IMG/VR virus record: IMGVR_UViG_3300010885_007199
Span: 1 to 21,810 of that record
Source of the DNA: a virus
Length of the DNA stretch: 21,810 bases
Reading direction: 5' to 3' (one strand)
Both the position numbers and the translations under genes were made by a program. Shown here piece by piece: positions 7,818 through 17,663 of this stretch; positions within the stretch are counted from its first letter, which is position 1, and every line of letters starts with the position of its first letter. A model generated the notes under the pieces. That model was not told the DNA's origin, did not search any database, and saw nothing but the letters and a program-made list of their open reading frames with translations.

Positions 7818-8185
7818 TATATTACTATGTTTCTTTGTATATTTTCATTGGGTATTGGTGTATTGTTTATACCATACAATGTGGTTTTACTTTTAATACT
7901 ATTAAGATAGTATGCCATTAATGCAGTTGTTTTTATTTTTGAAGTACCCTGTATATATTGCAATAATGTTAGAGGATCTTCTCCGGTAATACTAGAAATT
8001 CTGAATAGCATTGTTGTAAAATTTTTAGCAGTAGACATGCTATTGCTTACTGAATAAAAATATGAATTGATGATCTCATATTGATCTGCCCCCACAACTA
8101 AATCAAAGTTGTAAAACTGATCAAAGACTCTTACCGTGTTGTCTAGATAAGTTCTTGGTGCGTCTAATGTTAATGTTGTTGCCAT
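7817..8185 (-). CDS. Conserved small virion protein, 122 aa, function unknown
   Basis: The sequence is compact with no low complexity. Segments DNTVRVFDQFYNFDLVV, KNFTTMLFRISSITG and TALMAYYLNSIKSKTTLYG resemble a protein I recall from the tail/baseplate gene clusters of aquatic T4-like phages, where it has no settled function. It sits between the tube-fold gene and gp4, consistent with a virion or assembly role. A GAGG ribosome site lies at 8193-8196, seven bases before the ATG. A 10-bp inverted repeat contains the late promoter in one arm and the start codon in the other. No signal peptide, membrane segment or enzyme motif is visible. Confidence 0.7.
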   Translation of the reverse strand: MATTLTLDAPRTYLDNTVRVFDQFYNFDLVVGADQYEIINSYFYSVSNSMSTAKNFTTMLFRISSITGEDPLTLLQYIQGTSKIKTTALMAYYLNSIKSKTTLYGINNTPIPNENIQRNIVI

Positions 8186-8211
8186 AAATATACCTCTATG
8201 ATATATTTATG
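8183..8211 (-). promoter_or_regulatory. Late promoter inside a start-codon-sequestering inverted repeat
   Basis: CATAAATATA and TATATTTATG form perfect 10-bp arms (8202-8211 and 8183-8192) around a 9-base loop holding the ribosome site. The late box CATAAATA (8204-8211) is the 5' arm on the minus strand, and the ATG at 8185 is in the 3' arm. The stem has only one G-C pair. The box directly abuts the stop codon of the upstream gene. Confidence 0.5.
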
Positions 8212-13786: not shown

Positions 13787-13789
13787 CTT

Positions 13790-13797
13790 GATAAATA
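13790..13797 (+). promoter_or_regulatory. Late promoter box five bases before the HNH-like start
   Basis: GATAAATA is followed by ATACA and then the ATG at 13803. If initiation follows the T4 rule (box at about -13 to -6), +1 is the A of the ATG and the message is leaderless. No Shine-Dalgarno sequence is present. Confidence 0.5.
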
Positions 13798-13802
13798 ATA
13801 CA

Positions 13803-14147
13803 ATGAGACCTATATGCAAACTATGTAATAAAAATCATTCGGCTATTAATTATAAACGAGCTGGAATTACTCATTATAGAAGTATATGTGATGACTGTGG
13901 TAAAAAAAAGCCAAAAGATAAAGTGAGAGTCCAATCTTGGGCAAAGAGTGGATACAAGAAAAAAGCCACATGTGACTTATGCGGCTTTAAAAGTACATAT
14001 TCAACACAACTAACTGTGTTTCATATTGACGGAAATTTAGAAAATAATGTGTTTACTAATCTACGTACAATCTGCTTAAACTGCATTGAAGTAGTAAAAA
14101 GAAAAGATGTTAATTGGCGCAGAGGTGATTTAACTGTTGATTATTAA
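13803..14147 (+). CDS. HNH-like zinc protein, 114 aa, probably catalytically degenerate
   Basis: Two Cys pairs near the N-terminus (C5/C8 and C29/C32) and two in the C-terminal half (C57/C60 and C91/C94) make two likely zinc sites. Between the last pairs lies FHIDGNLENNVFTNLRTIC, the shape of an HNH beta-beta-alpha-metal core (HHxDGNxxNN...NL...C..C). His74 is present, but the preceding metal-ligand position is Phe73 and the His normally after the last Cys pair is Ile95, so nuclease activity is doubtful. The ATG at 13803 is preferred over a TTG at 13788 because the upstream codons overlap the late promoter box. The gene runs against its neighbours and overlaps the 3' end of gene 1 by 18 bases. 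I recall similar proteins in aquatic T4-like phages. Confidence 0.72.
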   Translation: MRPICKLCNKNHSAINYKRAGITHYRSICDDCGKKKPKDKVRVQSWAKSGYKKKATCDLCGFKSTYSTQLTVFHIDGNLENNVFTNLRTICLNCIEVVKRKDVNWRRGDLTVDY

Positions 14148-14829: not shown

Positions 14830-15603
14830 TTAACCAATGATCCATGTCAATGGTTGTGAATAATCAACGTAACGTTTGAGGTCTTCTATTAACATAGCTT
14901 GCATTGCAACACCTTCTGCTTTTAGTTGAGCACCATTCAAACTTGTTCCTCCACTAGGGCCTGCAATACTTCCAAATTTCTCACGAGCTTCACCTAATGT
15001 TAATTTTAATTGGCTAAGTGTCCAATCACCAATCCAAACACCTGCACCCGGATCTTGCAACAAAACTACTTCAGGTTTCTGTACATCAGCCCAAATTAAC
15101 ATCTGTTCACCCTGACCTTTTGGATCACGAACTAATTTGATTTCTTTTGTTACTGGATTGAATGTATAGATTACATAACCACCAAACATACGTGCGGCTA
15201 ACTCAATGTATTGTGCATAAAAATCATAAGTGGCTAATCCACCTGCATAGTTGTAATTGAGCAAATATGTATTGAGAATAGCACTAGAAAATGGATCGAA
15301 TGAACTTGCGGCTGGACCAGTTTCTAAACCAATGGTTCTACGAAATACTTGTCGTACATTGATAAATTCTTTAGGAAGTGTATATACATTTTGATGAGTA
15401 TTGATAGTCATCAATGTATAAGATTCTTCGGTGGCATTTTGCGCTCTTTGTCTGTATACTTTAACAGCATAGCTGTAAGCGGCTTCATAATGATCTGGAT
15501 CCAATTCCAGATCAACAATACCCTCACCCAAACGAAGGCGAAGATTTCTAAATAATTCTTCTTTTAAATCATTTAATGCAGGTTGTTTAATTTCGACAGA
15601 CAT
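14830..15603 (-). CDS. 13: Neck protein gp13-like, 257 aa
   Basis: The N-terminal helices (LKEELFRNLRLRLGEGIVDLELDPDHYEAAYSYAVKVYRQRA) match the start of the gp13/portal-adaptor family, which binds beneath the portal and with gp14 forms the neck that accepts the tail. Further marks are the NVRQVFRR strand, a DFYAQYIELAARMFG helix, FNPVTKEIKLVRDPKG, and the late GGTSLNGAQLKAEGVAMQAMLIEDL helix, where family members have GGVQFNGQQI-type sequences. T4 gp13 is 309 aa. It is transcribed away from the gp14 and gp15 genes, which sit on the opposite strand beyond the early operon. The start is fixed by a TGGAG ribosome site seven bases upstream. That site is buried in a hairpin whose loop side carries the late promoter. 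Confidence 0.75.
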   Translation of the reverse strand: MSVEIKQPALNDLKEELFRNLRLRLGEGIVDLELDPDHYEAAYSYAVKVYRQRAQNATEESYTLMTINTHQNVYTLPKEFINVRQVFRRTIGLETGPAASSFDPFSSAILNTYLLNYNYAGGLATYDFYAQYIELAARMFGGYVIYTFNPVTKEIKLVRDPKGQGEQMLIWADVQKPEVVLLQDPGAGVWIGDWTLSQLKLTLGEAREKFGSIAGPSGGTSLNGAQLKAEGVAMQAMLIEDLKRYVDYSQPLTWIIG

Positions 15604-15605
15604 AT

Positions 15606-15638
15606 AGTACTCCAGATATTGTATTTATCTAGAGTACT
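15606..15638 (-). promoter_or_regulatory. Late promoter nested in an RBS-sequestering hairpin before gp13
   Basis: On the minus strand, AGTACTCTAGATA (15638-15626) pairs with TATCTGGAGTACT (15618-15606): 13 bp including one G-U, with a 7-base loop. The GGAG ribosome site (15610-15613) is in the 3' arm. The late box GATAAATA (15622-15629) runs from the 5' arm through the loop, so a transcript starting about six bases after it lacks the 5' arm and has a free ribosome site. Confidence 0.75.
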
Positions 15639-15645
15639 GGTTTGG

Positions 15646-16056
15646 TTAAAGATCGCCTTCTTTACGATTTTCACTGTGATAAGGATCAAACTCTCCACCG
15701 GGATAACGTGATTCTAATTTCTTAACATTCTCGGCAATAACATCATTGGGATCTAAGTCAAGTGCCCTACAAGCATTAACCCAATACCACATGATATCTC
15801 CTAATTCACGTTTCATATGAAAGATATTTTCTTCATTTAAGGGTTTACCTTGAAAGAAAATCTTTTTAGGAATCTCAATAAATTCACCTGCTTCCGCAGA
15901 CATACCTAAACATGCAGTTAATAATAAACTAGGATTGATATTTGGACTACCCTCTCGTAATTCAGTAATACGAGGTCCTAAATAATCATAATTATTACTT
16001 TCTTTAGATGTAACCGCATCTACAAATTTGCTATACTTGTTTAAATCAATATTCAT
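15646..16056 (-). CDS. mazG: MazG-like nucleotide pyrophosphohydrolase
   Basis: This all-helical MazG/HisE-type enzyme removes pyrophosphate from (d)NTPs or related nucleotides. The metal-binding signature is ExxE (E55, E58 in AEAGEFIE) followed by ExxD (E84, D87 in KRELGDIMWY). The LLLTACLGMSAEAGE helix and the C-terminal NVKKLESRYPGGEF segment are typical of the phage MazG-like group, whose members are common in marine T4-like phages. ATG at 16056 is preferred over an in-frame GTG at 16068 because it forms an ATGA overlap with the stop of the upstream 59-aa gene. That gives 136 aa. It is the last gene of the early-type operon, and no terminator separates it from gp13. Confidence 0.88.
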   Translation of the reverse strand: MNIDLNKYSKFVDAVTSKESNNYDYLGPRITELREGSPNINPSLLLTACLGMSAEAGEFIEIPKKIFFQGKPLNEENIFHMKRELGDIMWYWVNACRALDLDPNDVIAENVKKLESRYPGGEFDPYHSENRKEGDL

Positions 16057-16232
16057 AGCATCAACCACGCATCAAAAATAAGAACAGTTCCTATAAAAAT
16101 CTGTATCATTCCATTACTGGGTTGATCAGTTGCCAGTGAATTAACACCACACAATACATTAATTATACCTAATGTGTATCCGATTTTTTTACGATTTTCG
16201 GTAAACCAAAATATAACTTTATCAAAATTCAT
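16053..16232 (-). CDS. Small two-helix membrane protein, 59 aa
   Basis: The frame starts at ATG 16232 (MNFDKVIFWFTENRKKIGYT) and ends with TGA at 16053. It has two hydrophobic segments, about residues 21-33 (LGIINVLCGVNSL) extending from IGYT, and 43-59 (IQIFIGTVLIFDAWLML). They are joined by a short polar turn with a Pro, giving a hairpin membrane topology; the first segment follows a basic ENRKK stretch. Its start overlaps the 60-aa gene (ATGA) and its stop overlaps the MazG start (ATGA), so it is a coupled operon member rather than spacer. I recall similar RKxxGYTxGxxNVL proteins in aquatic T4-like phages. Function is unknown; a membrane effector or holin-like role is conceivable. Confidence 0.78.
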   Translation of the reverse strand: MNFDKVIFWFTENRKKIGYTLGIINVLCGVNSLATDQPSNGMIQIFIGTVLIFDAWLML

Positions 16233-16411
16233 ACATAATCCTTAAACATTTTTTTACGTCCTTCTACTCCCAATGTATCATCATAAATCTCTCTAACATG
16301 CTGTAACATTACACATGCTAACATTAATAATTCATTTGGATCATCAGTTAAGTGTATAGCCGCTGTAACCGGCTTTGCTATTTCCATCATTCTATCTTGT
16401 ATTTTATCCAT
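16229..16411 (-). CDS. Small conserved phage protein, 60 aa
   Basis: The protein is helical and acidic, with a pattern MEIAKPVTAAIHLTDDPNELLMLACVMLQHVREIYDDTLGVEGRKKMFKDYV. The central DDPNELLMLACVMLQ resembles a tiny hypothetical protein I recall from aquatic T4-like phages, where residues LxxLAxxML and EExRxxxF are conserved. No catalytic motif, Cys pair or membrane segment is visible; it may be a regulatory or adaptor protein. It starts two bases after the stop of the 406-aa gene, with a GGTGG ribosome site, and ends in a four-base overlap with the 59-aa gene. It is therefore the second gene of the early-type operon. Confidence 0.72.
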   Translation of the reverse strand: MDKIQDRMMEIAKPVTAAIHLTDDPNELLMLACVMLQHVREIYDDTLGVEGRKKMFKDYV

Positions 16412-16413
16412 TA

Positions 16414-17607
16414 TTAACCCACCTTTAATATGATCATGTTATCGTTCGACCTACCATTAAACGCTGTACCTACAGCTTTGATCTCGCTAAAAAATTTACG
16501 ACCTGCCGGTTTACCTAACTTCATAAATTCTTTAAGTTGCTCACCTGGTTTTCGTACAGTCTTTATTTGACTTTTTACACTATCAAATCCTAATATAGTA
16601 TTACCTTTAATTGTAAATACTTTACTATATTCATCAGCAATCAAATAAATTAATTTACGAGTTGCAGAGTTGTATAGGTAACATTCACTAGCACCGTGTA
16701 ACTTAGTTGGATGCACACTAGTCAAATCTAATTTGTTAACAGCATCTTTCAATTCTTTGAGATATTTCAACTTAGATACAATCTTCTCAACCGGGACTGC
16801 TTTTTTCTTTCTAGGTGCTTTACTTGCTTTCTTAACATTAATATAACTGTTAAGATCACCTAATACCGATTCAATAAACTTAACTGTATTTTTAAGTTGA
16901 GTTTTAGTTAAATGCTGATACCCTTGAATTAGTTGACTATCTTTACCTTCCAATACATCTTCAAATTCAACTAATTTTCTTTTCCAAATGTCAGCTATCA
17001 CATAGATATATTGAGGTACTACATTTTTCCTAGCTAATTCGTCCATTGGTCTAAAACTATGATTAGCTTTTGCACCATCGATCATAAAACTATCAAACAT
17101 ACCCTCAAGTTCACCTGCTGCCTCAATTGCTTTTTCACGCAAATAATCTTGAATTGTAGGTCTAGCTACCACTGGTTCTATTTCTTCAGTTTTTGCTACA
17201 CTAAGATTACTAGATTTTAATTCTGGATCAGTTAAACATTTTAATAGTCTAGATGTTTCATTAGATAATCTTGCCTGCTCACTATCTAATAATTCTAGTC
17301 CTCGCATTTTCATACGAGCTAACCAACACAATGTCATTATAAATTCACTATCAGCAACTTTGCGAATTAGTTTAGCCTGATCAGGTTGATCATTATAATC
17401 TAAATATTGGGTAAATAAATCTTTAGCATCTTTTTTACCATAAAAACGATTATACCAAGTAAAACTTCTTGATAGTGTTACGGTTCGATTTTCTAACAGG
17501 GGTTGCGTTATAAACAAGGGTTCTTCACCCATATACTTCATATCTACATCTTTTGGATTCAATGCTTTTATGAAATGATCATCTAATTGTTTAGTTTTTC
17601 GTACCAT
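16414..17607 (-). CDS. Conserved hypothetical protein, 397 aa, first gene of early-type operon
   Basis: The start is set at ATG 17607 (MVRKTKQLDDHFIKAL), five bases after an AGGAG site. The longer frame from 17634 would begin inside the -10 hexamer of the promoter. The N-terminal region carries SRSFTWYNRFYGKKDAKDLFTQYL and a LARMKMRGLELLDSE helix. The middle is helical with coiled-coil character and a basic KKASKAPRKKKAVPVEK linker (about residues 264-280). The C-terminal 110 residues (SECYLYNSATRKLIYLI, then KTVRKPGEQLKEFMKLGKPAGRKFFSEIKA and LNG-like FNGRSNDNMIILKV) form a compact conserved domain that I recall from other aquatic phages without a function. The basic linker and early-type promoter suggest a nucleic-acid-related role, but this is only inference. 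Confidence 0.78.
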   Translation of the reverse strand: MVRKTKQLDDHFIKALNPKDVDMKYMGEEPLFITQPLLENRTVTLSRSFTWYNRFYGKKDAKDLFTQYLDYNDQPDQAKLIRKVADSEFIMTLCWLARMKMRGLELLDSEQARLSNETSRLLKCLTDPELKSSNLSVAKTEEIEPVVARPTIQDYLREKAIEAAGELEGMFDSFMIDGAKANHSFRPMDELARKNVVPQYIYVIADIWKRKLVEFEDVLEGKDSQLIQGYQHLTKTQLKNTVKFIESVLGDLNSYINVKKASKAPRKKKAVPVEKIVSKLKYLKELKDAVNKLDLTSVHPTKLHGASECYLYNSATRKLIYLIADEYSKVFTIKGNTILGFDSVKSQIKTVRKPGEQLKEFMKLGKPAGRKFFSEIKAVGTAFNGRSNDNMIILKVG

Positions 17608-17634
17608 AATGACTCCTATCTGTGAATATAGCAT

Positions 17635-17663
17635 AGTATACTATACTTCTAATTATCTGTCAA
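17635..17663 (-). promoter_or_regulatory. Perfect sigma70-type promoter for the early operon
   Basis: TTGACA (17658-17663) and TATACT (17635-17640) on the minus strand are separated by exactly 17 bases. The -10 lies within TATAGTATACTA (17634-17645). Expected initiation near 17628 leaves about 20 bases of leader before the ATG at 17607. Confidence 0.88.

Follow-up and report, generated by a model that had tools for sequence, protein, structure and literature searches.

The window considered here, that is, the whole stretch of DNA analysed, is a 21.8-kb virus fragment which carries a T4-type structural gene cluster on its minus strand. The gene for the neck protein gp13 lies on this strand directly behind an operon that begins with a phrog_11903 gene, includes a 60-aa gene for which no family match was found and ends with the gene for a MazG pyrophosphatase. 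The coordinates are collected in the table. By comparison with relatives, the likely start of mazG is the ATG at 16056. The phrog_11903 gene probably starts at the ATG at 17607, since the longer alternative (ATG 17634) overlaps the sigma70 promoter located at the head of the operon. An earlier note on this DNA had placed such a promoter at 17.65 kb and had seen no terminator after MazG, and both observations hold at the level of the sequence. The promoter (TTGACA-17-TATACT, 17663-17635) is present at the same place with at least 10 of 12 consensus positions in 47 of 52 relatives, versus 6.6% of shuffles; in most relatives the match is 12/12 and the distance to the phrog_11903 gene is fixed. 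No minus-strand terminator-like site is found between MazG and gp13, the two weak matches on this strand being located inside mazG (15902-15885) and inside gp13 (15545-15520). A terminator between the operon and gp13 was also sought in the loci with a short gap and was not found. The operon is taken to be early because of its host-type promoter and its gene content.

Table. Features of the gp13 junction in the window, and related sites in other loci and genomes
Feature	Position	Strand	Basis or description
gp13, neck / head-tail adaptor	14830..15603	(-)	phrog_211 head-tail adaptor Ad2, E 4e-23
Putative regulatory hairpin	15606..15638	(-)	13 bp, 7-nt loop; fold, hairpin scan, covariation in 73 distinct leaders
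Hairpin 3' arm, holds the Shine-Dalgarno (SD)	15606..15618	(-)	sequence; SD core paired in 62/63 strong hairpins
GGAG SD of gp13, 6 nt before ATG (15603)	15610..15613	(-)	sequence
Predicted late transcription start, within 3' arm	15616..15617	(-)	T4 late promoter geometry
T4-type late box GATAAATA	15622..15629	(-)	GATA in 5' arm stem, AATA in loop
Hairpin 5' arm, expected only on RNA entering from upstream	15626..15638	(-)	sequence, compensatory changes versus 3' arm
MazG pyrophosphatase, last gene of the operon	15646..16068	(-)	PF03819 E 9e-9; phrog_229 E 1e-47
60-aa gene, same operon as mazG	16229..16411	(-)	ORF
phrog_11903 gene, first of the operon	16414..17634	(-)	phrog_11903 E 4e-65
sigma70 promoter TTGACA-17-TATACT, operon head	17635..17663	(-)	11/12 consensus positions
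~400-nt element in relatives	L271 3550-3950; L250 3560-3965; L015 3560-3975; L253 310-745; L013 275-700		
Further late boxes in SD hairpins	GAP32 16348, 235913, 278826; RaK2 139479, 211210		

Between mazG and gp13, the minus-strand RNA from 15638 to 15606 reads AGUACUCUAGAUA-AAUACAA-UAUCUGGAGUACU and can fold into a hairpin whose only non-Watson-Crick pair is U15631-G15613. The earlier note's account of a 13-bp hairpin burying the GGAG of gp13 was right both in coordinates and in description, as judged from the sequence and the fold. The late box, which it had also reported, runs across the 5' arm and the loop (15629-15622), and the late start derived from T4 geometry is predicted at the very place it had proposed. 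The folding energy of the region is -23 kcal/mol, versus -13.1 +/- 2.8 in shuffles (z -3.5; 0/200). Hairpins with at least 13 bp and at least 4 GC pairs nevertheless occur 0.23 times per shuffled window; taken alone, without relatives, the hairpin of the window is thus only moderately rare. Chance is rejected because the helix is conserved and covaries in relatives, and not because of this single fold. The T-run that an intrinsic terminator would have after its stem is absent in the window, and a comparison of the window with the Rfam families gave no match at the gathering score.

Relatives were collected from IMG/VR by a protein scan which returned 80 loci and a second scan which returned 80 more; additional single-protein scans with RaK2 and PA5oct yielded few new lineages. 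Among the loci resembling the window, those with a late box provided 77 distinct leaders, 3 of them ended by the contig end, and 73 distinct leaders, including that of the window, were aligned with MAFFT using sequence only. The 13-pair helix is paired in 83.9% of the cells of this alignment, versus 71.3 +/- 1.0 in shuffles, and both sides have changed in 157 helix cells, versus 65 +/- 10. The helix covariation amounts to 0.373 versus 0.168 in shuffles (reached in 0/500). These shuffle statistics are inflated by relatedness; sliding the register, a control in which the relatedness is kept, still leaves a large gap, with pairing dropping to 32-48% and covariation to 0.08-0.11. The same 13-pair helix is recovered unprompted by RNAalifold. 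In most relatives the hairpin is found at the same place with different arms, as in CTCCAGATAAATA..TATCTGGAG, TCCTGATAAATA..TATCAGGA, TACCTGATAAATA..TTATTAGGTA and CTCCCGATAAATA..TATCGGGAG, while the late box GATAAATA is invariant in leader alignment A1. The alignment of relatives proposed in the earlier note displays abundant compensatory change in the arms, around a conserved late box.

The same note had also argued that the single mismatch, G-U in the gp13 RNA and C-A on the opposite strand, fits selection on the RNA. This argument is weak when taken alone, as the nearest relative (L002) has a C-A mismatch in the corresponding RNA, but a bias of this kind is seen across the whole set. With the register set by Watson-Crick pairs alone, the exceptions within good helices, read on the gp13 sense strand, comprise 25 G-U and 9 A-C (p 0.009). 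The bias is counted as mild support only: the Gs held constant by the ribosome site and by the late box account for part of it, and L002 shows C-A.

The effect of the helix on the ribosome site was computed as the energy required to open the SD. For gp13 of the window this energy is 13.3 kcal/mol on the read-through RNA and 1.7 kcal/mol on RNA initiated from the late box. The same computation applied to T4 gene e gives 14.6 and 3.0 kcal/mol, an effect of the same size in a gene whose repression, about 100-fold, was shown experimentally (PMC3014915). In the large near relatives G001 and G002, gp13 alone among 29 and 34 late-box genes, respectively, drops by more than 8 kcal/mol; the palindrome is therefore not a part of late promoters in general. 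The late motif finds support in four related genomes, where ATAAATA is enriched at 18-40 nt upstream of genes (24 vs 0 in G002). In phage CBB, an ATAAATA motif was described before structural genes at 35 places, along with a gp55-like sigma factor (PMC5259590). The window itself is a 21.8-kb fragment; homologues of the gp55-like late sigma factor are found in G001-G004, RaK2 and GAP32.

One other site of the window, a 12-bp AU-rich hairpin with a late box CATAAATA before a 122-aa gene (8183-8211, minus strand), was considered as a second switch and set aside as probably due to chance: the gene follows a late gene, and no such hairpin precedes the two homologues found.

Named phages display the same arrangement with other sequences. 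In XaC1, RaK2, 121Q, GAP32, CBB and XbC2, gp13 is located behind same-strand genes of the nudE, glutaredoxin or macro-domain type, and in each of XaC1, RaK2/121Q and GAP32/CBB/XbC2 the SD lies in a long hairpin whose 5' arm contains a TAAATA box and whose sequence is unrelated to that of the window's hairpin. The annotated gp13 starts of RaK2 (L083 2947) and 121Q (L084 2941) are probably too early, because a GAGGTG found after the annotated ATG fits the next in-frame ATG; this GAGGTG falls inside the hairpin. When the gene next upstream is divergent, as in Atu_ph07, SCTP-2, Phosso and Vibrio 2.275O, no comparable hairpin was found before gp13; the start site is kept in these phages, and the TAAATA box is clear in all except Vibrio 2.275O. 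When all distinct leaders are considered, a drop of at least 5 kcal/mol is observed in 61 of 75 with a same-strand neighbour versus 1 of 9 with a divergent one, these counts being phylogenetically non-independent, with divergent examples that are few and distant and of which two or three are doubtful calls of short reverse ORFs. PA5oct has a same-strand neighbour and yet only a weak structure, and weaker forms are found in its group. In the PA5oct-like loci L186, L192, L193, L199 and L202-L204, nested hairpins surround the late box: the outer stem joins GCTGA(T), ahead of the box, to codons 2-3 (TCAGC), and the inner stem, where compensatory changes occur, joins CTCT, beyond the box, to the SD AGAGG.

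The design is not limited to gp13. A late box within an SD hairpin is also found at GAP32_032, a virion structural protein gene in the left, probably early, region, at a KTSC-domain gene which follows IF3 and further genes (RaK2_00155/GAP32_315), at the HNH endonuclease gene GAP32_373 and at the nuclease gene RaK2_00290 (DNA/RNA nuclease).

In six loci, gp13 is preceded by a long gap and the hairpin is weak, with a median of -4.9 versus -15.1 kcal/mol. This gap is occupied by a highly conserved non-coding element, about 400 nt long, positioned between the early-type operon and gp13. The element is absent from the window; besides the loci of the table, some 40 others, all distinct, carry it among L287-L351. 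Exact copies of a 19-nt piece were located in 65 IMG/VR stretches, and gp13 comes directly next in 38 of the 47 distinct cases. Its predicted structure comprises 82 pairs, 21 with compensatory change, when based on five sequences, and 51 pairs, of which 27 show two or more Watson-Crick types, when based on 44 sequences. Rfam gave no usable match to the element, either at the gathering score or at relaxed E-values, and a tRNA or tmRNA identity was rejected, none being found by ARAGORN.

Among close relatives, hairpin and element alternate at the junction. A strong hairpin is present in 95% of the 61 distinct leaders without the element versus 6% of the 31 with it (p 7e-13). On a quick gp13 tree of 93 rows, 60 have the hairpin without the element, 28 the element without the hairpin and 5 are exceptions; a weak hairpin without the element is seen in 4 rows (L252, L266, L078 and L213). 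The element changes state 14 times on this tree, the hairpin changing along with it. When only the well supported (starred) branches are retained, 4 independent pairs are left, of which 3 agree and 0 oppose; the independence of the swaps is suggested, not proven. These counts bear on a point which the earlier note had named as refuting a switch, namely relatives that lose the pairing of the arms while keeping the ribosome site. Such relatives do occur (32 of the 93 rows), but 28 of the 32 carry the ~400-nt element, so that replacement seems a better account of the loss than neutrality. It may be, although we place this a little short of an even chance, that the junction between operon and gp13 is held by either of two interchangeable devices, the hairpin or the ~400-nt RNA, which were repeatedly swapped, the element making the hairpin unnecessary. 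The RNA might end, process or insulate the early RNA, or it might regulate gp13 itself.

On the evidence available from the sequences, an early-off, late-on translational switch appears, with good confidence, to be the best explanation of the hairpin. Transcripts of the operon, initiated at the host sigma70 promoter, would run through MazG into gp13 and include both arms, so that the ribosome site would be locked in the 13-bp helix and gp13 left untranslated. Once infection reaches its late stage, GATAAATA inside the hairpin would serve the late sigma factor of the phage, and the resulting RNA, starting at about 15616 without the 5' arm, would be translated. The helix and its covariation, the placement of the SD, the late box, the conserved sigma70 promoter and the lack of a terminator can be read directly from the genomes; we infer the read-through, the transcript ends, the size of the repression and the early nature of the operon. 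Every part of the switch proposed in the earlier note that could be confronted with sequences came out favourably, and so did the comparison with leaders behind a divergent gene, which carry no hairpin of comparable kind.

Several other functions can be envisaged for such a hairpin. As it closes the operon directly after the stop codon of MazG, it could be an intrinsic terminator or a 3'-end stabiliser of the early operon which overlaps the ribosome site incidentally, and a T-run does follow the stem in 8 of the 63 strong hairpins. It is however absent from the other 55, the stem is AU-rich in many relatives, the 3' arm always lies on the SD core and the register is constant relative to the late box and the start codon, all of which makes this function unlikely. 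The presence of the GGAG within a hairpin also recalls the sites cut by T4 RegB, which are of this kind, and the structure could then be a site of processing or decay (cleavage of the RNase III or RegB type), the gp13 part being released and not blocked. The GGAG string is not conserved, with GGAAA, GGTAA and GGGGA occurring in relatives, whereas the pairing is, and such a role is considered quite improbable.

The inverted repeat could finally act as DNA, either as an operator or within the late promoter, with a repressor or the late sigma complex binding to it; inverted repeats are typical operators, and the late box lies within this one. The arm sequences are nevertheless free to vary while the pairing stays, which a sequence-specific operator would forbid. 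Other late promoters of the same genomes are devoid of the palindrome, which is also absent when the upstream gene is divergent though the late box remains, and mismatches on the gp13 strand favour G-U over A-C. An action at the DNA level is held to be just as improbable as processing.

The proposed translational switch follows a logic known from T4. The long early RNA of gene e hides the SD in a helix, and late promoters located in its 5' part give late RNA which lacks the helix and is translated (PMC3014915). The late promoters of I-TevI, Aeh1 mobE and segB lie inside an SD-sequestering hairpin, the genes themselves being located in early or middle units (PMC2988022). The earlier note had cited gene e and I-TevI as precedents. 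The gp13 junction shares with gene e a helix that pairs the SD on the long RNA, a late promoter placed so that its RNA, from the predicted start, would be without the 5' arm, and what appears to be an early-type promoter upstream on the same strand with no intervening terminator. Gene e is moreover preceded by nudE on its own strand, an arrangement that recalls the nudE-type genes ahead of gp13 in RaK2 and GAP32. The two nevertheless differ, gene e (lysozyme) being a lysis gene and gp13 a virion neck gene, and the e leader has been reported only in close T4 relatives (PMC3014915). In the case of I-TevI, mobE and segB the genes are homing endonucleases, whereas gp13 is structural.

T4 soc is a capsid protein gene. 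Together with gene 49 it has been grouped with e, the SD or AUG being sequestered in an mRNA helix (PMC3014915); these are other genes than gp13, and no comparable comparative record was found for them in the literature consulted. An ATAAATA late motif is known from the RaK2-like jumbo phages (CBB, GAP32), but a hairpin at the neck gene is unmentioned in its description (PMC5259590), and a search of the available literature for a hairpin at gp13 or a neck gene found none. Novelty lies in the gene concerned, which encodes a virion neck protein, in a comparative record that is both deep and strong and, most of all, in the undescribed ~400-nt RNA that alternates with the hairpin.

If the switch operates as proposed, the logic of T4 e, soc and I-TevI would be firmly established across a large group of T4-superfamily phages, both environmental and jumbo, and would serve the neck gene wherever this gene sits behind an early-type operon, as argued from compensatory evolution and not from resemblance. 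A predictive rule would follow: when a late gene sits behind an early operon on the same strand, its leader is worth searching for an SD hairpin that encloses a late box. Phages of the RaK2, GAP32 or CBB type, which can be cultured, lend themselves to checking this rule, and the same junction points to a large undescribed RNA.

Two minor observations concern other sites. On the plus strand of the window, an HNH endonuclease-like ORF (13788-14147) lies opposite to its neighbours, the genes for the tail sheath and a dNMP kinase, which flank it, and GATAAATA is found at its first codons. In a relative, a freshwater-2 RNA (RF02980) is located about 8.6 kb from the gp13 junction (L301 9274-9351, minus strand).
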